Part shown: positions 25,412 through 64,000 of the stretch, piece by piece
Position numbering within the stretch: the stretch's first letter is position 1
How the letters are laid out: every line of letters starts with the position of its first letter
Translations under genes and position numbers: made by a program
Notes under the pieces: model-generated
Told to the model about the DNA's origin: nothing
Database searches by the model: none
The model's input: the letters and a program-made list of their open reading frames with translations, nothing else
Source of the DNA: a virus
Length of the DNA stretch: 64,000 nucleotides
Direction: 5' to 3' (one strand)
IMG/VR virus record: IMGVR_UViG_3300017917_001271
Span: 27,902 to 91,901 of that record

Positions 25412-25440
25412 ATTATAGTTGGATCAGTGGGTCTTGTCAA
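25412..25440 (-). promoter_or_regulatory. Consensus sigma70 promoter TTGACA-17-TATAAT
   Basis: On the minus strand TTGACA (25435-25440) and TATAAT (25412-25417) are separated by exactly 17 bp. The -35 box overlaps the stop codon of the preceding gene, and the start of the MoxR gene is 50 bp downstream. Confidence 0.85.
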
Positions 25441-54449: not shown

Positions 54450-54821
54450 TTAGTCCTTGTACTTGCCGTCTTCGTAATCTTTGCAAACATCATCATGTAA
54501 TTTTTTGCAAATTTCCTCAAACATTTCTTCTTCTAAACTGTTAGACAAATGTCTAATTGGAAACTTTTTGCAATATTCTTTGTAGCTTTTTTCTACAGCA
54601 GATTCAAAGAAATCAGGCGATGTGTCTTTTTTAGATTTTAAACTATCTACACATTTAATTATACTAGGAAATACATGACGTCTGTAAGTGTCGTCGTCGT
54701 TATTCATGAAGTACGTCAAGTCCTCAACTAAATCGTAGTTGATTCGCTCTCCATCTTCGTCTTTGGTAACAAAGTCTAAATCGTTAAATTTCTTACCTTC
54801 TAGTAGTTCTCGTATTCGCAT
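54450..54821 (-). CDS. Conserved phage protein with LRELF-type N-terminus
   Basis: This 123-residue, acidic and helical protein starts MRIRELLEGKKFNDLDFVTK. 'DLVEDLTYFMNNDDDTYRRH' (~residues 30-49) recalls a small conserved family in marine T4-like phages. Its N-terminus matches those of the two genes downstream. A late promoter lies upstream. Function unknown. Confidence 0.6.
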   Translation of the reverse strand: MRIRELLEGKKFNDLDFVTKDEDGERINYDLVEDLTYFMNNDDDTYRRHVFPSIIKCVDSLKSKKDTSPDFFESAVEKSYKEYCKKFPIRHLSNSLEEEMFEEICKKLHDDVCKDYEDGKYKD

Positions 54822-54894: not shown

Positions 54895-55515
54895 TTAGGC
54901 TTTAGCTATGCGCTCAATCTTGTTTATTGAGCCGCCTAAGTGCATTTTTGCCAGCAGGAGATTGTTTTCGCCCGTGATATAGAAGTAGCTACCGCCCCAA
55001 CTGCGATCTCTCATCAGTTCTTTTTTACAGCTCTTTGTCAGCTTGACTTTAGAGTTATTTTCAGCCCAACTGACAAAAGCCGATTGTTGAGTATCTGATT
55101 TACCAAGAGTTACTTTAAAATCGTAGTTAATTTTGGGTAAAATAATAACACCTTCAACAAGGGTAGTATTTGTTGGAGGAACACTAACATATTTTACTTT
55201 GGTTTTATCTAACTTTATAAGAGCATCAACGGCTGATTTTTCATTAGTATAAATGCTAATCCACGGAGTTTCAACCCGAACATTTATATCGCTGATTTTT
55301 TTAAGTTGTGCCTGTAACTTAAATGCGTAATCTAGATCTTCTTGTGTTTTGATACTGGTACGTGAACTTCTAGAATCATTCAAGGTTACTTTTTTTAAAT
55401 TTTCTAGAGTTCCAGTCCAGTCTCCACCCCTAAACCAGTTGGCACCAGCACAAACTAACACTAGTTTGTACTGGTACTTTCCGTTATAAAGATGTCTAGT
55501 TATTTTCGTTTGCAT
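54895..55515 (-). CDS. Hypothetical protein downstream of clpA
   Basis: This 206-residue basic protein (MQTKITRHLYNGKYQYKLVL...) is beta-rich, with 'WTGTLENLKKVTLNDSRSSR' and 'KKISDINVRVETPWISIYTN'. It may be a degraded or unfamiliar nucleic-acid-associated protein. It overlaps clpA by 20 bp. The 'SRTSIKTQEDLDYAFKLQ' segment recalls phage proteins acting on single chains, but no family is identified. Confidence 0.55.
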   Translation of the reverse strand: MQTKITRHLYNGKYQYKLVLVCAGANWFRGGDWTGTLENLKKVTLNDSRSSRTSIKTQEDLDYAFKLQAQLKKISDINVRVETPWISIYTNEKSAVDALIKLDKTKVKYVSVPPTNTTLVEGVIILPKINYDFKVTLGKSDTQQSAFVSWAENNSKVKLTKSCKKELMRDRSWGGSYFYITGENNLLLAKMHLGGSINKIERIAKA

Positions 55516-57781
55516 TATCTAACGCTTCGTTGAGACTGTCAATGGACAACAACGGGACCTTAGGAACTTTAGGTTTAGCTGTTAAGATGATCTTAGAGTC
55601 ATCTGCACTGATATTCAACCATCCGCCATTTTTCAAATCACCAAACAACATCATCTTAGCAAGGTCACGTTTGATTTCCTTGTCAATAACACGTTGTAAT
55701 GGACGAGCACCCATTTTACTATCAAATCCTTTTTCTATTAAGAAGTCGATAGCAGCTTTATCAGCTTTAATTCGAATGCCTTTTTCCTTAACTTGTTCTT
55801 TAAGTTCGTCAATAAATTTGTTAACGACCTTGACCATCGTTTCTTTACCCAACTTATTAAATGTAATGATTCCGTCTAAACGATTACGGAACTCTGGTGT
55901 AAAGAATTTATTAAGTTCTTTATCGCTGTATTCTTTTTGCTGTGCTCCGAAACCAATGGCGTTCTTTTCAGCTTCTTGTGCGCCAGCATTTGTTGTTAAA
56001 ATAAGGATAAGCTGACGGCAGTCTGCTTTCTTACCGTTACTACCAGTAATAAATCCGTTATCCATCATTTGTAACAGTACAGTTGATACATCGGGATGCG
56101 ATTTTTCAACTTCGTCAAACAATAGAACAGCATTAGGACTTTCCTGAATACTAGTAATAAGTTGACCAGCATTTTCTTCGAACCCAACATAGCCAGGAGG
56201 GCTACCAATCAACTTACTGATGCTGTGCTTTTCTTGATATTCACTCATATCAAAACGCAACAATTTAACACCAAGATTTTTAGCCAGTGCCTTTGCTGTT
56301 TCTGTTTTACCACATCCAGTTGGCCCCATGAACACAAAGCTACCAATAGGTTTGTTTTCATTTTTTAGACCTGCTTGTGCAACAACAATTCTGTCCACAA
56401 TTTCTTGTACAGCAAGATCTTGACCGTAGACTTCTTGTTGTAGTTTATCCTGCAAAGTTGCTAGATTATGACTTTCAGTTTCACTAACAACTTCTTCTGG
56501 GATCTGTACCACCCTGCTTAGTTCGTGTTCAATTTCTTTCTCAGATACAATACGGTCCTCGGCAAGCTTCAAATTAAAACGACTGCAAGCCAAATCAATC
56601 AAGTCAATGGCCTTGTCTGGTAGTTTTTTGTCTGTTTGGAACTTGACGGACAACTTAATTGCCGCTTGTAGCGCATCATCCTTGATCTTAACATTATGGA
56701 ATTGTTCATAATATTTTTTAAGACCTTTAAGGATCTGTAGCGTTACTTCTTGTGTAGGTTCGTCAACAGTAATACGTTGGAATCGGCGCATTAATGCACG
56801 ATCCTTCTCAAAGTGTTTACGATATTCTTCCCACGTGGTACTAGCAACAACCTTGATGTTACCTTTGCTCAGTGCAGGCTTCATCATATTAGCTAAATCA
56901 TTGGCGCCGTTGCTGGCAGAACCTGCACCGTTTATCATATGTGCTTCGTCAATAAACAGAATAGTTTTGCCTTTCTTTGCAAGTCCTTTAAGAACAGCCT
57001 TAAACCGTTCTTCGAAGTCTCCGCGATATTTACTACCTGCCAGCATACTGCTAATATCTAAATTATATACGGTGTAATCCTTGAGGAAATCAGGTACAGC
57101 ACCCTTGACAATGTTATAGGCCAGTCCTTCTGCTATAGCAGTCTTACCTACTCCTGGATCTCCTACAAGTATTACGTTATTTTTGTTTCTTCGACCCATA
57201 GCAAGAGCAATATTCTCTAGCTCGTCTACACGACCAATAACAGGATCAATTTTATTTTTCTTAACTTGATCATTTAAGTTAGTGGTAAAGGCATTGAGTG
57301 CTTTATTAGCCATGCCTTCTCTTGGGTCTTCTTCTTCTTCACTCTCTTCTACTGCGCTGTTTAGATAATCTGCAAACTTGTCCTTATCGATGCCCGATTG
57401 CTGAATAAAGTAATAGGCCCAGCTACGCTTTTCTCCCATCATAGCAAGGAATACATCAGCAGGTTCGATACGCTGTCTGCCATTAAACAGTACTTGTGTG
57501 AACGCACGATTTAGGATGCGTTCAACACTTTGGGTCTTTTTAGGTTTTACTACAACATCCTGCACAGTGATTTCTTGGCACTTTGATTGTAGATAATTGA
57601 CAATATTCTTTTTAAAATCGTCTATGTTAGTACCATAGCCCTGTAGTGTTTTGCTAAACCCTTCTTCCATAAGAATAGCAAACAACAGATGTTCAATTGT
57701 CAGATATTCGTGGTGTAGCTTTTTAGCAGTTTCAATAGCTTTTTCAAAAACTGCTTGTAGGTTATCACTTGGTTCTACCAT
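55496..57781 (-). CDS. clpA: ClpA-like AAA+ unfoldase
   Basis: The 761-residue protein matches E. coli ClpA in length (758). It has an N-terminal Clp_N domain (residues ~1-145), Walker A1 'GDPGVGKTAIAEG' (~205-217), Walker B1 'TILFIDEAHMI', Walker A2 'GPTGCGKTETAKA' (~478-490) and Walker B2 'VLLFDEVEKSH'. It lacks the ClpB middle domain. An IGF tripeptide in 'NAIGFGAQ' (~615) is the loop that docks ClpP, so the protein could feed host ClpP. No phage ClpP is in the window. It sits 1 bp after the peptide deformylase. Confidence 0.95.
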   Translation of the reverse strand: MVEPSDNLQAVFEKAIETAKKLHHEYLTIEHLLFAILMEEGFSKTLQGYGTNIDDFKKNIVNYLQSKCQEITVQDVVVKPKKTQSVERILNRAFTQVLFNGRQRIEPADVFLAMMGEKRSWAYYFIQQSGIDKDKFADYLNSAVEESEEEEDPREGMANKALNAFTTNLNDQVKKNKIDPVIGRVDELENIALAMGRRNKNNVILVGDPGVGKTAIAEGLAYNIVKGAVPDFLKDYTVYNLDISSMLAGSKYRGDFEERFKAVLKGLAKKGKTILFIDEAHMINGAGSASNGANDLANMMKPALSKGNIKVVASTTWEEYRKHFEKDRALMRRFQRITVDEPTQEVTLQILKGLKKYYEQFHNVKIKDDALQAAIKLSVKFQTDKKLPDKAIDLIDLACSRFNLKLAEDRIVSEKEIEHELSRVVQIPEEVVSETESHNLATLQDKLQQEVYGQDLAVQEIVDRIVVAQAGLKNENKPIGSFVFMGPTGCGKTETAKALAKNLGVKLLRFDMSEYQEKHSISKLIGSPPGYVGFEENAGQLITSIQESPNAVLLFDEVEKSHPDVSTVLLQMMDNGFITGSNGKKADCRQLILILTTNAGAQEAEKNAIGFGAQQKEYSDKELNKFFTPEFRNRLDGIITFNKLGKETMVKVVNKFIDELKEQVKEKGIRIKADKAAIDFLIEKGFDSKMGARPLQRVIDKEIKRDLAKMMLFGDLKNGGWLNISADDSKIILTAKPKVPKVPLLSIDSLNEALDNANENN

Positions 57782-58267
57782 TTATTTTTTCCTTTGGTTC
57801 TTTCTAGCTAATATCAGACTCATTGAACTTACTTTACTTGTAAAGGTAATTCCGTTTAAATGATCTAACTCATGTAAAAAACATCTAGCATCGATGCCAG
57901 TTAATGTCATTTTACATTCTTCTCCCTTTTTGTCAAGGTATTCGACATCTATTTTAGTTGGACGTTTAACCTTTAACCAAAGATTTGGAAAACTTAAACA
58001 TCCTTCTTCTGAGTTATGTTCTTGATCGCCATGACTGATGACTTTGGGATTGAACATTGCCAGGGTTTCTTTGGTACTGTTGAGCGAAATAACAAATACT
58101 CGCTTTAGTAAGCCCACTTGATTACCTGCTAGTCCACGCCCGTTGAATGACTTCATAATAGAAATCATATCTTGTTCAACTTGCTCGGCGTCTGTATCTT
58201 TTTCAAAATCCCAATCAACTGCTACTTGTTTTAGGATTGGATCAGGATCTAATACTAATTTCATCAT
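57782..58267 (-). CDS. def: Peptide deformylase
   Basis: The 161-residue enzyme removes the formyl group from new N-terminal Met. It has all three motifs: '[10 protein letters not shown]' (motif 1, ~residues 43-52), 'EEGCLSFP' (motif 2, ~91-98) and 'HELDHLNG' (HExxH metal site, ~131-138). Phage deformylases are known in marine phages. Two ATGs lie side by side; the first is used. It overlaps the dnaJ stop by 26 bp and precedes clpA. Confidence 0.95.
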
Positions 58268-59105
58268 TAATTTCTTTTAACCTGCGAACAATATCTGGAT
58301 CAGTTATGTTAGGAGTTCTTATGTTGACAGCAATGACAAATCTGCCACGCTGACCAGTCCTTGGATCTGAAAAACCAAAGTTTTGACTGGCATATTCCAC
58401 ACCAGTTTCGACTCCTGGTCGGATGTCAATTTCTTTTTCTTCGCCGGTAATATATTTTACACGTTTTCTGCAACCTATCATAGCCTCAATTGGACTGATG
58501 TTTACAGTAGTATATAAGTCATCGCCTTGTCTTCTAAAATTAGGATCAGGAAGTACTATTACAGTTACATTTAAACTTCCTCTAGGCATACCAGGAATGC
58601 TGTCATCACCTAGTCCTTGATATCTAATTGTTTCGCCGTGGTTGATACCTGCTGGTACATTTATTACAACTGTTTGAGGCTTTCCGCTAGGCAGTTGATA
58701 ATTTGCTTCTAATTGCTTACCTAAAAAAGAATCCAGGAGAGTAATTTGGCATTGTATATTTAGATCTCTGTTCCTTCTTCCACCTCTGCCAAACACATCA
58801 AAGAACGGATTAGATCTATGCCCAAACGGGTCAAAGGACCCACCAAATAAATCATTTAGGTCTTGGAAATCTCCGGATGTAAAACGAACATGTGGTCCTC
58901 CACCTTGTCTTTGTAAATCATATTCGGCACGTTTCTTACCATCGCTCAAGGTATCGTAAGCGACACTGATGTCCTTAAATTTGGCCTGATCTCCGCCCTT
59001 ATCAGGATGATGTTGATTTGCCAACTTTCTGTAGGCTTTTTTGATTTCGTCTGGTCCAGCTTCTGGGCTGACACCTAATATTGAATAGTAATCTTGCATA
59101 GTCAT
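58242..59105 (-). CDS. DnaJ/CbpA-like Hsp40 co-chaperone
   Basis: This 287-residue protein has a J domain (residues ~1-68) with the HPD motif 'HHPDKGGD'. A Gly/Phe-rich linker follows ('[20 protein letters not shown]'), then two beta domains ('[17 protein letters not shown]', '[20 protein letters not shown]'). The Cys zinc-finger region of full DnaJ is absent, so it is closer to CbpA/type II Hsp40. It would stimulate a DnaK, presumably the host's. A TTGACA-17-TACTAT promoter is directly upstream. Confidence 0.93.
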
Positions 59106-59127
59106 AAAAACAGGTCAAGTAAAAGTG

Positions 59128-59156
59128 ATAGTACACTATTTACATTGACCTGTCAA
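59128..59156 (-). promoter_or_regulatory. Sigma70-like promoter TTGACA-17-TACTAT upstream of dnaJ
   Basis: On the minus strand TTGACA (59151-59156) and TACTAT (59128-59133) are 17 bp apart, 22 bp before the dnaJ start. TTGACAGGTCAA (TTGAC/GTCAA arms) makes a 12-bp palindrome over the -35, and TGTAAATAG in the spacer also resembles the late core. Confidence 0.75.
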
Positions 59157-59169
59157 GCCAATTGAAATT

Positions 59170-59385
59170 TTATTTCTTTTTAGCTGATTCTGGTACTTTT
59201 TCGCCTTCTACTTTTTTGTGTACTTTAATTTTTTTGCATTCTTGGACTGCTTTTCCGTCCTTGCCTTTGACAACTTTGCCTGCTTTGTCTAACTTGTCCT
59301 TACAGACTTCTTTGATTTCTCCACCTGCAAATACTGGGTTAGAAAGAGTTAATGCTAACCCTGCTACAAAAATAATTTTTTTCAT
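59170..59385 (-). CDS. Small periplasmic Lys-rich protein
   Basis: The ATG at 59385, with AAGGAAA upstream, gives about 71 residues from MKKIIFVAGLALTLSNPVFA, a clear Sec signal peptide with an AxA-type cleavage site. The mature part is Lys/Val-rich ('KEVCKDKLDKAGKVVKGKDG') with two cysteines. It is the last gene of the lysis cluster. It may act in the periplasm during lysis or infection; function unknown. Confidence 0.65.
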   Translation of the reverse strand: MKKIIFVAGLALTLSNPVFAGGEIKEVCKDKLDKAGKVVKGKDGKAVQECKKIKVHKKVEGEKVPESAKKK

Positions 59386-59395
59386 AATTTTTCCT

Positions 59396-59938
59396 TTATA
59401 AAACAGGATCGTCTGTTGGGACAATCTTTTTACCGGTAGCTGTTGTTGCTATCGGTGCTGCACTACTGAAGCCGCCACCAAAACTTGCTGGTGCTGGACT
59501 AGGTGCGCTTCCAACGCCGCTTGAGCTAAAGCCTCCTGTGGCGCCTGTTGCTCCGAAACTTGTCGCAGCTGGTGCCTGGAAACTGCTTGGTGCTGCTGGA
59601 GGTACGCTAAAGCCTGTTGTTGGTGTTGTTGCTGCTCCGCCATTGTTAGCTCCTGCTAATTTTTCTTGTGTGCGACCTAAAGCCGCAATACCTAAAACTG
59701 CTCCCATTGCAATATGGAACAATCCTGCACCTTGAAGTGTTAACGGTTGCCATTGTGTAATCTGTGACACATGCATGACTGCTTGTAACATACTCCACAT
59801 AATTGGAAATAGTACAAAGTCAAATGCACATACTCCCATGTACAGCCATCCCATCATCGGACGCCATTTACTATTCATCCAATCTTCTTTTTTCTTTTCA
59901 GCATCGCTCATTTTTGCGTATTCATCTGCTGTTGTCAT
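59396..59938 (-). CDS. Holin-like membrane protein
   Basis: This 180-residue protein has an N-terminal charged region, two membrane segments (residues ~26-50 and ~66-90; 'RPMMGWLYMGVCAFDFVLFP') and an Ala/Gly/Pro-rich cytoplasmic or periplasmic tail. 'KWRPMMGWLYMGVCAFDFVL' fits 3-TM/2-TM holin families that permeabilise the inner membrane for the endolysin. It lies in the lysis cluster with the endolysin and spanins. The holin call is from topology and context. Confidence 0.58.
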   Translation of the reverse strand: MTTADEYAKMSDAEKKKEDWMNSKWRPMMGWLYMGVCAFDFVLFPIMWSMLQAVMHVSQITQWQPLTLQGAGLFHIAMGAVLGIAALGRTQEKLAGANNGGAATTPTTGFSVPPAAPSSFQAPAATSFGATGATGGFSSSGVGSAPSPAPASFGGGFSSAAPIATTATGKKIVPTDDPVL

Positions 59939-59951
59939 TTAACTACTCCTA

Positions 59952-60515
59952 TTATAAAAATAGAAACACACCTTGGGCACTTAAAAACAGCCCAACGCCT
60001 GCTACTACAAAACTACTCCAAAACATTGGCATACTTACAGCAAGGATACTTGCTGAAAGAACAACAATAGCCAGTTGATACGCTGTACTGGCATAACCAA
60101 TCCAAGGACTAGACTTCTTTGCTACTTCTCTTTCGTGTTCCATCTTACGTGCATTAACGGCAATTTCTTTCTTGTCCGCATCCATACGTTCTGCTTCTGC
60201 TTTAAATTCTGCACGTAATTTAGGATCGCTAGTTGTTTTGCTGGCAATCTCATAACTTACCAAGCGGTTGTTCTTTGCTTGATACTGTGCCCAAGCGTTA
60301 TTGGCACCTAAGGTGTTGTTAAGGACTGTACTACTTAACTTACCACCGTACCAACTATTAACTGCTAAAAACAAGGCAAACACGCTGATGACCATACCTG
60401 CTTTGTCTTTGATTTTTGCTTCTCTTTCACTACGGCTTCCAGGTGCAGGTTTTGGTGCATCTGTATCCTTAGGGTCTTTATTGATTAATTTTAGAATTGA
60501 ATCGTGTAATGCCAT
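59952..60515 (-). CDS. DUF4337-like membrane protein
   Basis: The protein has 187 residues, with membrane segments at ~41-60, ~140-157 and ~163-186 and a central charged helix ('LRAEFKAEAERMDADKKEI'). 'ANNAWAQYQAKNNRLVSYE' is the conserved region I associate with DUF4337 (bacterial and phage proteins of unknown function). Its position among lysis genes suggests a second membrane-active or antiholin-type protein, but this is inference. Confidence 0.6.
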   Translation of the reverse strand: MALHDSILKLINKDPKDTDAPKPAPGSRSEREAKIKDKAGMVISVFALFLAVNSWYGGKLSSTVLNNTLGANNAWAQYQAKNNRLVSYEIASKTTSDPKLRAEFKAEAERMDADKKEIAVNARKMEHEREVAKKSSPWIGYASTAYQLAIVVLSASILAVSMPMFWSSFVVAGVGLFLSAQGVFLFL

Positions 60516-60534
60516 TTGCGCTCCTTTCGACTAT

Positions 60535-60801
60535 TTACTTTACGCTATCAAAATTTTGTTTTTGGGTTTCGTACCATTCTTTCCACAGTTCGCCTTTGAA
60601 CTGGCATTCGTGATACTGACTGTAGTTTTCAGTAACAACTCTTAGTACATCACTGAGTTTAGTTGTTCCTTCTGGAACGTCTTTTAAATTAGGACACAGT
60701 TCTGTTAGTTCTTTAGGAACTTCTGGAAAATTTCGTTTAACAGGAGTAGACAAACATCCTGTTAATAGTAGTGTAGTTGCTAGAATTAGGACTAGTTTCA
60801 T
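60535..60801 (-). CDS. Outer-membrane spanin candidate (Rz1-like lipoprotein)
   Basis: This 88-residue lipoprotein begins MKLVLILATTLLLTGCLSTP, with Cys16 in an LTGC lipobox. The mature part is helical, with two further cysteines. It overlaps the preceding multi-TM/coiled-coil gene by 4 bp (ATGA). The size, lipobox and pairing match the Rz/Rz1 spanins that fuse inner and outer membranes at the end of lysis. Its mature part is less proline-rich than classical Rz1. Confidence 0.68.
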   Translation of the reverse strand: MKLVLILATTLLLTGCLSTPVKRNFPEVPKELTELCPNLKDVPEGTTKLSDVLRVVTENYSQYHECQFKGELWKEWYETQKQNFDSVK

Positions 60802-61268
60802 TTTTGCCCTCTCTCAGGTTTTTTAGCTGCTTCATTTAAGATGTTAACAGCTTCTGGTGCTACTTCGCACTTAGCATCTACAAGTTTTTCAACTTCTTTA
60901 ATCTTTTCCTGTACAACAATCTGCGTATCTTTAATTACTTGTACCCTATCTTTGTATTTTACTACAATTTTTTCGTTAACTTCTTTAGACTTTTCTTCTG
61001 CTGCTTTTATTTTATCTTCTAGTTCTGCTACACGTTGACGCCATTCTGATTCTGTATCATATCCGCCTTTGAAATAGATACCAGCTACTAAAAGAATAGC
61101 ACTGACAATTTGTACTAGTAAATGATATGGTGCTAGAGCAGGAAACCATCTGACTATTCTATGTAGTAGAAAGAAGCTCAAAAAAGAACTTATCGCACCG
61201 ACAATTAAAATTGTATGTACTACATACAAAAGTAAACTATCGGGGATCCATGCTAATAGCCAAAACAT
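60798..61268 (-). CDS. Inner-membrane spanin candidate (Rz-like)
   Basis: This 156-residue protein has two to three N-terminal hydrophobic segments (residues ~1-75), then a long charged coiled coil (~82-135; 'AELEDKIKAAEEKSKEVNEK'), and a Lys-rich tail. A coiled-coil periplasmic domain anchored in the inner membrane next to a small lipoprotein is the i-spanin plan. Classical Rz has one span; this one has extra ones. It lies 1 bp after the endolysin stop. Confidence 0.65.
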   Translation of the reverse strand: MFWLLAWIPDSLLLYVVHTILIVGAISSFLSFFLLHRIVRWFPALAPYHLLVQIVSAILLVAGIYFKGGYDTESEWRQRVAELEDKIKAAEEKSKEVNEKIVVKYKDRVQVIKDTQIVVQEKIKEVEKLVDAKCEVAPEAVNILNEAAKKPERGQK

Positions 61269-61269
61269 T

Positions 61270-61902
61270 TTAGTGTCCTAGCACATGGATTGCATGGTTG
61301 TAGTGCTTAATACGATCTTCTAATCCAATAGTGCCACCGTTAATACGCTTGGTCAATGTTAACATGTCACCTTTGTCTGCCCATTGGTTTAAATTATTAG
61401 CTTCCCAGAACCATGCTGCACTTTGTACGCACCCTTCAAATGTTGTTAGATGCTCACTAGCTTCGTCTAAACTAATTTCTAAACTTTCTGCATAACGTTC
61501 GTAATTACTCTTGCCAGTGAGTTGAATTAACCCACGACCGCAGAACTTCCATCCGTCGCCTGATGCTTCGTCACCGTTGCCCATACGATTTGCATAAGCA
61601 CGATTGGCAATTTTTTCTTGATTGTGTGCATATTGTTTAGCAACATCTAATGTAGGAAAATATCTTGGCCAAACACGCATTAAACTTTCTGCTTTGTAAT
61701 TTAAGTTTTCCTTAATTGCTCTGTAGCCGCCCGACTCGTGTGCTGTTTGTGCTAAAAATGCTGCTACACGGGGTACTGTATGAATATCATAATCGGGCAA
61801 AATTTGGCATAATGCTTCGTACCAATGTTCTGCATGTGGAGGATTCCCGCCAACACATTCTTTAAATTTTGCTAATGTAAAATCAAACTCAAATCCGCTC
61901 AT
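61270..61902 (-). CDS. GH19 endolysin
   Basis: This 210-residue glycoside hydrolase family 19 protein is used as a phage lysozyme to cleave peptidoglycan glycan chains. 'VAAFLAQTAHESGGYRAIKE' (~residues 44-63) carries the catalytic Glu (HESG), and 'GRGLIQLTGKSNYERYAESL' (~120-139) is the family signature. There is no signal peptide, so it needs a holin. It starts with a TAATG overlap after the 243-residue gene. Confidence 0.92.
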   Translation of the reverse strand: MSGFEFDFTLAKFKECVGGNPPHAEHWYEALCQILPDYDIHTVPRVAAFLAQTAHESGGYRAIKENLNYKAESLMRVWPRYFPTLDVAKQYAHNQEKIANRAYANRMGNGDEASGDGWKFCGRGLIQLTGKSNYERYAESLEISLDEASEHLTTFEGCVQSAAWFWEANNLNQWADKGDMLTLTKRINGGTIGLEDRIKHYNHAIHVLGH

Positions 61903-62633
61903 TATTCTTTCCTTTCAAGTGCAACGGCCCAACCGTTGTTTTCAAACACAAAAGCATTGCCTACTTTTGTAATGTTATAGTTTCCGATGTATTTTGTTAA
62001 AAACATTACTTCCGCCATACTTTTGCTTTCTAGCAAGAATGGGCCGTCAAGTTCTCCAAAAACTTCTTTAGTACTACCACTAGTTATAATTTTGAATGTA
62101 ATTTTATCACCGTAGATACGTTTAAAACTTATTGACTCGTCTAACATTTGAATCTCGTCTGCATAGCTACGACTAAAAAATTCTTGAAAATTATCAACTT
62201 TATTTCGTTCTGTTGCTATCTCATAACTATCTTTGTCTAATGGAATAGCCGCAGATAAGTTTTCCTCTGTAGCATCTTGACTCTTAAAATTTTTAAAATA
62301 TCTAAATTTAAAATTATTGATGCCTGAGATTTTTTCTACACCGTCAAGAATTTCTCTAATTTGCTCTGGTGCATGTCTTGTGCGCTCTAGTTCAACGTAA
62401 ACTCTGTAGGTGCCGTCATCTAATTCGCCAGGGCTAACATCTGCATCTAATACAAAGTCGTAACCCATTTCAATAAAATTTTCTAAATCTTTTGCCGGAT
62501 CTTCGTGATCTACTGTAAAAGACATGGTTACAATGTCTTCGTCGTCGCCAATTTTACTTTTGAATGCGTCTATCTCAATAATTTTTTTAATAAAACCTCT
62601 GAGATCTGATGCTCTAAGACTTTCATTCATCAT
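61902..62633 (-). CDS. Conserved phage protein of unknown function
   Basis: This 243-residue protein starts MMNESLRASDLRGFIKKIIE. The fold looks alpha/beta ('YDFVLDADVSPGELDDGTYR', 'FRYFKNFKSQDATEENLSAA'). 'DGTYRVYVELERTRHAPEQI' and the later 'NGWAVALERKE' resemble virion-side proteins of marine T4-like phages. It lies just upstream of the endolysin and overlaps both neighbours by 1 bp. No catalytic motif. Confidence 0.6.
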   Translation of the reverse strand: MMNESLRASDLRGFIKKIIEIDAFKSKIGDDEDIVTMSFTVDHEDPAKDLENFIEMGYDFVLDADVSPGELDDGTYRVYVELERTRHAPEQIREILDGVEKISGINNFKFRYFKNFKSQDATEENLSAAIPLDKDSYEIATERNKVDNFQEFFSRSYADEIQMLDESISFKRIYGDKITFKIITSGSTKEVFGELDGPFLLESKSMAEVMFLTKYIGNYNITKVGNAFVFENNGWAVALERKE

Positions 62634-63235
62634 TATACTGGTGCTCCTGGCATTGCTGGTGCTGCTCCCGCTGTTGGTGCTGCTGGTGCTGCTCCAACTG
62701 GAGGCATTCCGCCCGGAGGCATTCCACCACCTGGAGGCATAGCTCCTGGAGGCATAGCAGGTTTTTTCTCTTCTGACTTATCAGGCTGAGACTCTGCTTT
62801 CATTTTATCCATGTAACCTCGATACATGTCAAACGCAATCTTTTTTGGCATTTGTATTTCTACAATCCAAATTGGTTTACGATCTAATTTGCCTTTTTTA
62901 GTTCCAGGACGAATGTCTTCTGGAGTGCGTATTTTTCTAGGTTCGATCAAGTGACTTTTTTGATACTTGATTTTGCAACCTAAATCTTGTAAACGCTTTG
63001 CAGCTACAGGGTTTGGCATTCTATCTTTGGGCCACATAAACCCTGCTGTGATCCAATGACGATCAACTTGTGGTCCGTAGGCTAATTCGCCATCTTCCCA
63101 GTTTTCGTAGGCATATATGTCCATCTCATCTAGAACACGCTCAAGATCCTTCATTATTGCAAGGCTTGTGTTGTTTTCGTATAAGTCGTCAATATTACGT
63201 ATAATGTCTAAAATATCGTACATGTTAGGTTCCAC
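62633..63235 (-). CDS. Conserved phage protein with Pro/Gly-rich tail
   Basis: The protein has 200 residues. The ordered part (residues ~1-140) includes 'YGPQVDRHWITAGFMWPKDR' and 'PIWIVEIQMPKKIAFDMYRG'. The C-terminal ~50 residues are Pro/Gly/Ala/Met repeats (GGMPP and similar), which are likely disordered. It is the first gene of the lysis operon after a late promoter and is conserved-looking for marine T4-like phages. Function unknown. Confidence 0.6.
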   Translation of the reverse strand: MEPNMYDILDIIRNIDDLYENNTSLAIMKDLERVLDEMDIYAYENWEDGELAYGPQVDRHWITAGFMWPKDRMPNPVAAKRLQDLGCKIKYQKSHLIEPRKIRTPEDIRPGTKKGKLDRKPIWIVEIQMPKKIAFDMYRGYMDKMKAESQPDKSEEKKPAMPPGAMPPGGGMPPGGMPPVGAAPAAPTAGAAPAMPGAPV

Positions 63236-63246
63236 AGTTTTCTATA

Positions 63247-63255
63247 CTTATTTAG
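63247..63255 (-). promoter_or_regulatory. Late promoter-like CTAAATAAG
   Basis: The minus strand has CTAAATAAG 12 bp before the start at 63235. The same 9-mer occurs in the folE promoter spacer. It would drive the lysis operon late. Confidence 0.5.
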
Positions 63256-63314
63256 CTGGTTTAAAACGATAACATATCAGTTTACTTTTTGTAGAAATCA
63301 GTAAATAGTTGTGT

Positions 63315-63353
63315 AGGACCTCTGTAGTTATCAGGGCGGTCGCTACAAGTCCT
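63315..63353 (+). promoter_or_regulatory. Nested stem-loop leader of phoH
   Basis: AGGAC (63315-63319) pairs with GTCCT (63349-63353), and inside it TGTAG (63323-63327) pairs with CTACA (63343-63347). The structure sits 27 bp before the phoH start. A TAAATA-type promoter core (63302-63307) lies just upstream, so the hairpin would be in the mRNA leader. It could control translation or stability. Confidence 0.45.
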
Positions 63354-63380
63354 GCTTTTACGAGTAGGAGAACAACTTAG

Positions 63381-64000
63381 ATGAGCAAAAGAGTGAAGAA
63401 ACGCTTTACATCAGAAGTTAAAGTAATTGATTTTGAACCATACCTTCCGCACAAGAAGCAGCGTGTAGTGATCACTGCACGAAACCCTAATCAGAAATTA
63501 TACCTAAGCAAACTGCACGATGAGCAAAACAGTATTGTTATCGCCATTGGCCCAGCCGGCACGGGTAAAACTTTGTTAGCCGTACAAAACGGAATCAAAC
63601 TGTTTCAAGACGGTGTTGTGGACAAAATTGTAGTTACAAGACCCGCCGTTAGTGTAGACGAAGATCTAGGATTTTTACCAGGCGACTTAAATGAAAAGAT
63701 GGCGCCGTGGACGAGACCTATATTTGACGTCTTTGCAGAATATTATAAACAAGCAGACATTAAAAAAATGTTGGAGGAAGGAGTTATCGAAATAAGCCCA
63801 TTAGCATACATGCGTGGCCGCACATTCAAGAATGCCTATATTATTGCAGACGAATGTCAGAATACCACAATAAATCAAATGAAGATGCTACTAACACGCT
63901 TGGGAGAAGGATCCAAGATGGTAGTCACAGGAGATTTAGCCCAGGCAGACAGACTAAGCGATAACGGATTAATAGATTTTTGTAACCTGCTCGCAAAAAA
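63381..64000 (+). CDS. phoH: PhoH-like ATPase (3' partial)
   Basis: The gene starts ATG at 63381, with AGGAGAACAAC upstream, and runs off the right edge after about 206 residues. 'VIAIGPAGTGKTLLAVQNGI' (~residues 53-72) is the Walker A motif, and 'AYIIADECQNTT' (~154-165) the Walker B with Glu. The pattern is the PhoH family (P-loop ATPase), widespread in marine phages and often thought to link to phosphate or RNA metabolism. It is the only + strand gene after 20.9 kb and is divergent from the lysis operon. Confidence 0.93.
   Translation, partial: MSKRVKKRFTSEVKVIDFEPYLPHKKQRVVITARNPNQKLYLSKLHDEQNSIVIAIGPAGTGKTLLAVQNGIKLFQDGVVDKIVVTRPAVSVDEDLGFLPGDLNEKMAPWTRPIFDVFAEYYKQADIKKMLEEGVIEISPLAYMRGRTFKNAYIIADECQNTTINQMKMLLTRLGEGSKMVVTGDLAQADRLSDNGLIDFCNLLAK

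Follow-up and report, generated by a model that had tools for sequence, protein, structure and literature searches.

A dnaJ-def-clpA operon of a large freshwater phage as a probable part of a phage-encoded Clp protease system

In this work, we analysed a 64,000-nucleotide stretch of DNA (the window; bases 27902-91901 of the 91,901-base virus record IMGVR_UViG_3300017917_001271) from a large freshwater bacterial virus, the record being a fragment that ends 6.2 kb upstream of the clpA gene. Its minus strand bears a head-to-tail run of dnaJ, def and clpA (59105-55496), followed by a conserved gene, orf206. Comparison with related phages indicates that dnaJ-(def)-clpA-orf206 probably supplies the chaperone and unfoldase part of a Clp protease system that this jumbo-phage lineage encodes itself. 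The likeliest partner of ClpA would be a phage-encoded ClpP (as ClpAP/ClpS) and not host ClpP alone, since ClpP was found in 13/13 and ClpS in 6/6 long relatives. The features on which the argument rests are listed below.

59106..59156, minus strand: promoter TTGACA-N17-TACTAT within a terminator-like hairpin followed by T5, before dnaJ (conservation, RNA fold, covariation)
58242..59105, minus strand: dnaJ, class-B (CbpA-like) J-domain protein of 287 amino acids with J and C-terminal domains (PF00226, 1.4e-22; PF01556, 2.8e-28)
57782..58267, minus strand: def, peptide deformylase of 161 amino acids with three motifs, an optional member (PF01327, 1.1e-45)
55496..57781, minus strand: clpA, complete ClpA-type double AAA+ unfoldase of 761 amino acids, colinear with E. 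coli ClpA, motifs kept
55949..55957, minus strand: IGF tripeptide of the predicted ClpP-docking loop, ClpA residues 609-611, aligned with E. coli IGL

ClpA and its docking loop

According to Pfam, the window ClpA consists of a Clp_N domain and two AAA+ modules, and it belongs to phrog_4871 'ATP-dependent protease' (PHROG, 7.5e-252). Its residues 11-734 and E. coli ClpA are colinear (1.7e-200, 44% identity), and Walker A and B, the pore loops and the arginine fingers are all kept. The N-domain, the two AAA+ modules and the colinearity with ClpA place it in class 1 of the Clp/Hsp100 proteins. In E. coli ClpA, IGL is the tripeptide that docks in the ClpP clefts (PMC7707817). The IGF of the window protein stands in the same column and was invariant in 79/79 near relatives, while the loop position just before it and the position two after it vary freely (2.2-2.4 bits). 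An initial annotation of this DNA had described a full-length ClpA with an IGF tripeptide, and these data bear it out. They support the view that the phage ClpA looks active from its sequence and that its ClpP-docking tripeptide is under strong constraint.

This constraint bears on another explanation, by which ClpA would, jointly with DnaJ and the DnaK of the host, act mainly as a ClpP-independent unfoldase or disaggregase, virion assembly being one possible use and the IGF a relic. Such a role would fit the constant neighbourhood of dnaJ and clpA, the loops of RaK2-like phages degraded to IGV, IGM, IGG or MNM, and the translocase/assembly function proposed for phage ClpA (PMC7824862). We nevertheless consider it quite improbable: the IGF does not change beside freely varying positions, the colinear alignment contains no ClpB-type middle domain, and ClpP and ClpS are found lineage-wide. 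A ClpB-like disaggregase was itself rejected, as the alignment with E. coli ClpA showed no coiled-coil middle-domain insertion in D1.

Among other phages, the IGF is kept in Atu_ph07, Phosso and PA5oct; the corresponding tripeptide is IGV in RaK2 and Vibrio 2.275, IGM in 121Q, MNM in Munch and IGG in Hallingskeid. LR756501 (735 kb) has neither the IGF nor ClpP nor ClpS, and it is the sole ClpA genome lacking both ClpP and ClpS. In the RaK2 group (L099, L100, L102, L105), the degraded tripeptide is accompanied by a ClpP of unusual divergence and by a ClpS that an N-terminal extension brings to about 180 amino acids. This suggests a private interface whose parts may have diverged jointly.

ClpP and ClpS in the lineage

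The contigs for the ClpP count were chosen via ClpA or via an unrelated neighbouring open reading frame (62633-63235), never via ClpP. Where a contig extends 53 kb or more upstream of clpA, ClpP (PF00574) is present on the strand of clpA in every case, 13 in all (G006, G008, G012, G018, G019, G038-G044, G050). Contigs with a reach below 41 kb have no ClpP, and G007 carries it at 43.6 kb. The clpP gene is 41-54 kb from clpA in most near relatives, with 31 kb in G031; in more distant ones, the interval reaches up to 72 kb. G030, the relative nearest to the window phage (DNA 81% identical across positions 57450-63995 of the window; 93% identity in the ClpA N-terminus), has ClpP 44 kb upstream of clpA; it was found via ClpP and is outside the 13/13. 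ClpS was detected in 6/6 near-lineage contigs that continue for 70 kb or more past ClpP and also in G020-G026, the long relatives of the lineage being 259-372 kb in size. Furthermore, ClpP and ClpS occur together in 9/9 ClpA-bearing jumbo isolates examined. From these relatives, the window phage itself probably encodes ClpP as well.

Several points weigh against this interpretation. No ClpP or ClpS is present in the window record, which stops 6.2 kb upstream of clpA, and no same-species contig running past the record end was found, G030 being the nearest. Two contigs, G045 (43.5 kb reach) and G047 (45.2 kb), are without ClpP, although both are borderline, inside the distance range seen. The clpP gene lies outside the clpA operon, and the contig counts are not independent because several contigs are near-duplicates (G041/G043). 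In addition, the residues that we take to form the ClpP pocket differ from those of E. coli, so that the partner is unreadable from sequence; no conclusion here rests on that list.

The phage ClpPs sampled keep the Ser-His-Asp triad, and many of them start near the mature N-terminus of E. coli ClpP, without a propeptide. Two forms were distinguished. The canonical form shares about 62% identity with E. coli ClpP; the other shares about 47-49% and bears an insert of 10 residues behind the active-site His. The insert was seen in many uncultured jumbo phages (L092-L094, L207-L220, L227) and in PA5oct; the sisters L091, L095 and L096 are without it. Five uncultured contigs (L209, L210, L216, L217, L220) contain, close to the main ClpP, a further ClpP-like protein that is divergent (about 27-31% identical to the E. 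coli enzyme, most triad positions kept). Such a protein, also seen in RaK2, Vibrio 2.275 and Phosso, could be either a subunit of a heteromeric complex or a separate protease. In most genomes, the positions ND..T..FV and H of E. coli ClpS, which take part in N-degron binding, are conserved in the phage ClpS. In G020-G023, PA5oct and SCTP-2, the clpX and clpS genes are close neighbours with the same orientation.

The lineage ClpP might instead be a virion (prohead) protease unrelated to ClpA, which would then need host ClpP or no peptidase. A phage ClpP has indeed been called a prohead protease (PMC5964084), clpP and clpA are unlinked, and some ClpPs carry the 10-residue insert. This explanation is hardly credible: along the whole mature length, these ClpPs are 47-62% identical to the E. 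coli enzyme and retain its triad and N-terminal residues, and they co-occur with ClpA and ClpS.

The initial annotation had proposed that the phage redirects host ClpP. In this form, ClpA would dock mainly on host ClpP and bring the host protease to chosen substrates. The constrained tripeptide agrees with docking as such; moreover, IGF is common in bacterial ClpAs, host ClpP should offer a compatible cleft, and the window record is without ClpP. However, the lineage has a ClpP of its own, whose distance from clpA is conserved and reaches beyond the record end, as well as ClpS, and the ClpA genome without ClpP, LR756501, has lost the IGF. Docking mainly on host ClpP is thus unlikely, but ClpA may use host ClpP in addition to the phage enzyme. 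A phage ClpP could not be seen in the initial annotation because clpP lies mostly 41-54 kb upstream of clpA in near relatives, whereas the record covers just the first 6 kb on that side.

The phage-encoded system, which we prefer, would work as follows. The strong sigma70-type promoter would drive dnaJ-(def)-clpA-orf206, presumably early and by host RNA polymerase. The AAA+ hexamer of ClpA would dock via its IGF onto ClpP and assemble a phage ClpAP. The phage itself would supply this ClpP from a gene about 41-54 kb upstream, on the strand of clpA, that the truncation has removed from the record. A phage ClpS, encoded further upstream, would supply substrates, putatively of the N-degron type. 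DnaJ would recruit host DnaK (in a few relatives, phage DnaK) to hold or remodel clients, and the peptide deformylase, when present, would mature new phage proteins. Going further, we can tentatively propose, with more doubt than belief, a self-sufficient, early-expressed set of ClpS, ClpA, ClpP and a J protein. Its private pair of ClpA and an often insert-bearing ClpP would stand apart from host ClpAP and serve only to take down host or defence proteins. RaK2-like phages would have gone further still, a diverged tripeptide being matched by diverged ClpP and ClpS.

An overview treats ClpP and ClpS mostly singly, with some jumbo phages encoding ClpP and others 'instead' ClpS to use host ClpAP (PMC7824862). 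In contrast, the present searches found jumbo-phage genomes that encode all three of ClpA, ClpP and ClpS, often along with ClpX and with dnaJ beside clpA. In the literature searched, we found no report of systematic ClpA, ClpP and ClpS co-occurrence, of the docking-loop constraint or of the nested promoter and hairpin described below. If the parts assemble, the phage would possess an independent, regulated protease, and this bears on the reshaping of the host proteome and on defence. PA5oct, a Pseudomonas phage that has relatives on the laboratory strain PAO1, shares the dnaJ-clpA pair and the ClpP variant and could serve as a test system that can be grown in culture.

The operon, its promoter and the chaperone genes

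Gene coordinates and the Pfam and PHROG matches agree with the uninterrupted dnaJ-def-clpA run of the initial annotation. Its end at clpA does not hold, as the run extends at least into orf206. The junctions are tight: dnaJ and def overlap by 26 nt, def and clpA abut (TAA/ATG), and clpA and orf206 overlap by 20 nt.

The promoter of its own ascribed to the operon was likewise corroborated. The TTGACA-N17-TACTAT element lies at 59156-59128 (minus strand), and a sigma70-type site at the same place matches at least 10/12 positions in 55/60 relatives and 12/12 in 39, with shuffles reaching at least 10 in 3%. The promoter sits inside an inverted repeat that is followed by a T-run. On the window strand, the RNA folds with -21.9 kcal/mol (z -5.9). 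The outer stem covaries, in-register pairing being 0.88 vs. 0.23-0.57 when the arms are slid (30 distinct arm pairs). Two-sided changes occur at pair 4 (T-A/C-G/G-C), pair 5 (C-G/T-A) and pair 6 (A-T/C-G/T-A). We read the hairpin as a putative intrinsic terminator for upstream transcription with the promoter nested inside it, so that new transcripts would begin past the left arm; an operator is the alternative. In L020/L021, a compact terminator hairpin instead overlaps the -35/spacer region before dnaJ.

The J protein keeps the HPD motif and has a C-terminal substrate domain, and the zinc-finger repeats (CxxCxGxG) are absent from it, as checked in relatives, which makes it a class B J-domain protein. 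Its start is probably the second ATG, at 59099, because most relatives show ACG at the annotated first codon. In 73/73 loci where the contig reaches that far, dnaJ precedes clpA directly or with def in between. The deformylase has GxGLAxxQ, EGCLS and HExxH, also kept in relatives; its gene is present between dnaJ and clpA in 58/73 loci and absent from 15/73, and no def was found elsewhere in the tested records lacking it at this locus. Therefore, dnaJ-clpA is the core of the operon and def an optional member.

The HSP70 (DnaK) search gave no match in the window record, which is truncated, in the long relatives G020-G023 or in most other relatives, so that the partner of DnaJ is likely host DnaK. 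The recruitment of DnaK through the J protein, also suggested in the initial annotation, is thus feasible given the HPD motif and the lack of HSP70 in the record. It needs to be qualified by G024-G026, where a phage HSP70/dnaK gene lies beside clpS.

Related systems, origin and neighbouring genes

Three isolates resemble the window in gene order. Sinorhizobium phage Phosso (PV764938) has dnaJ-def-clpA in the same order and on the same strand and additionally encodes ClpP, ClpS and ClpX; it differs in its ClpA (43% identical), in the thymidylate synthase and DHFR genes downstream and in being a 469 kb isolate. In Agrobacterium phage Atu_ph07, dnaJ adjoins clpA, but there is no def between them and ClpA is about 40% identical. 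Its authors reported ClpX, ClpA, ClpB, ClpP and ClpS (PMC6102473), and ClpX, ClpP and ClpS were found in our analysis too. In Pseudomonas phage PA5oct (Wroclawvirus), dnaJ directly precedes clpA, again without def and with a ClpA about 40% identical; the phage has its own ClpP, bearing the 10-residue insert as in uncultured relatives, as well as ClpS and ClpX.

The RaK2, 121Q and Munch phages share a full-length ClpA (phrog_4871) accompanied by phage ClpP and ClpS, but they have no dnaJ or def beside clpA, their docking tripeptide is degraded, and their ClpP and ClpS are divergent. The moraphages, according to the part of PMC12619734 accessible to us, are large aquatic phages with a core ClpA and frequent DnaJ/DnaK; they form their own lineage, and that part describes no dnaJ-def-clpA operon. 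The E. coli ClpAP/ClpS system corresponds in domain layout, motifs and docking loop and, in relatives, in the ClpP triad and the ClpS ND..H residues. It differs in that its ClpA is 44% identical and that the window operon includes dnaJ and def, with no clpS upstream of clpA.

A complete ClpA is not unusual in jumbo phages, contrary to the initial annotation. It is a known PHROG, annotated in RaK2, 121Q, PA5oct, Munch and Atu_ph07, and phage ClpA has been described before (PMC6102473; PMC7824862; PMC12619734). The survey of related phages that the annotation had suggested shows ClpA recurring in jumbo phages, and its presumed rarity was not borne out. A tree was built from 34 phage ClpAs and 40 bacterial ones; 33 of the phage proteins form one clade (support 99) apart from the bacteria, and LR756501, whose branch is very long, falls outside it. 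Over the full length, bacterial ClpAs match at about 45% identity at best. This depth and this distance led us to reject a recent host capture; the clpA gene was therefore acquired long ago and not from the present host. The top match in the phage collection, 'Acinetobacter phage MD-2021a', was discarded as a bacterial chromosome in which clpS-clpA is flanked by argC, rpiA and similar genes.

Two conserved genes follow clpA; their counts refer to 81 loci, the window's own included.

54895..55515, minus strand: orf206, conserved protein overlapping the clpA stop codon, same operon by position (after clpA in 81/81 loci)
54450..54821, minus strand: orf123, conserved short protein, probably on the same transcript (in 80/81 loci)

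The AlphaFold2 (AF2) model of orf206 has a predicted local distance difference test (pLDDT) score of 90. Against the PDB, it gave nothing better than E 0.01, and the VIA comparison gave Z of at most 5, to unrelated folds. Its fold relatives come only from uncultured phages and Atu_ph07 (A0A2L0UZ61). The idea of orf206 as a hidden ClpS-like adaptor was set aside as unproven, there being no convincing match to a solved structure. No Pfam or PHROG match was obtained for orf123.

A tRNA scan of the window found none. Elsewhere in the window, a perfect TTGACA-N17-TATAAT promoter lies at 24269-24241 (minus strand), upstream of a gene of the HNH-endonuclease family, and its spacer itself forms a strong hairpin (ACAGGGCC-TACG-GGCCCTGT). 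A second perfect promoter is situated at 25440 (minus strand).

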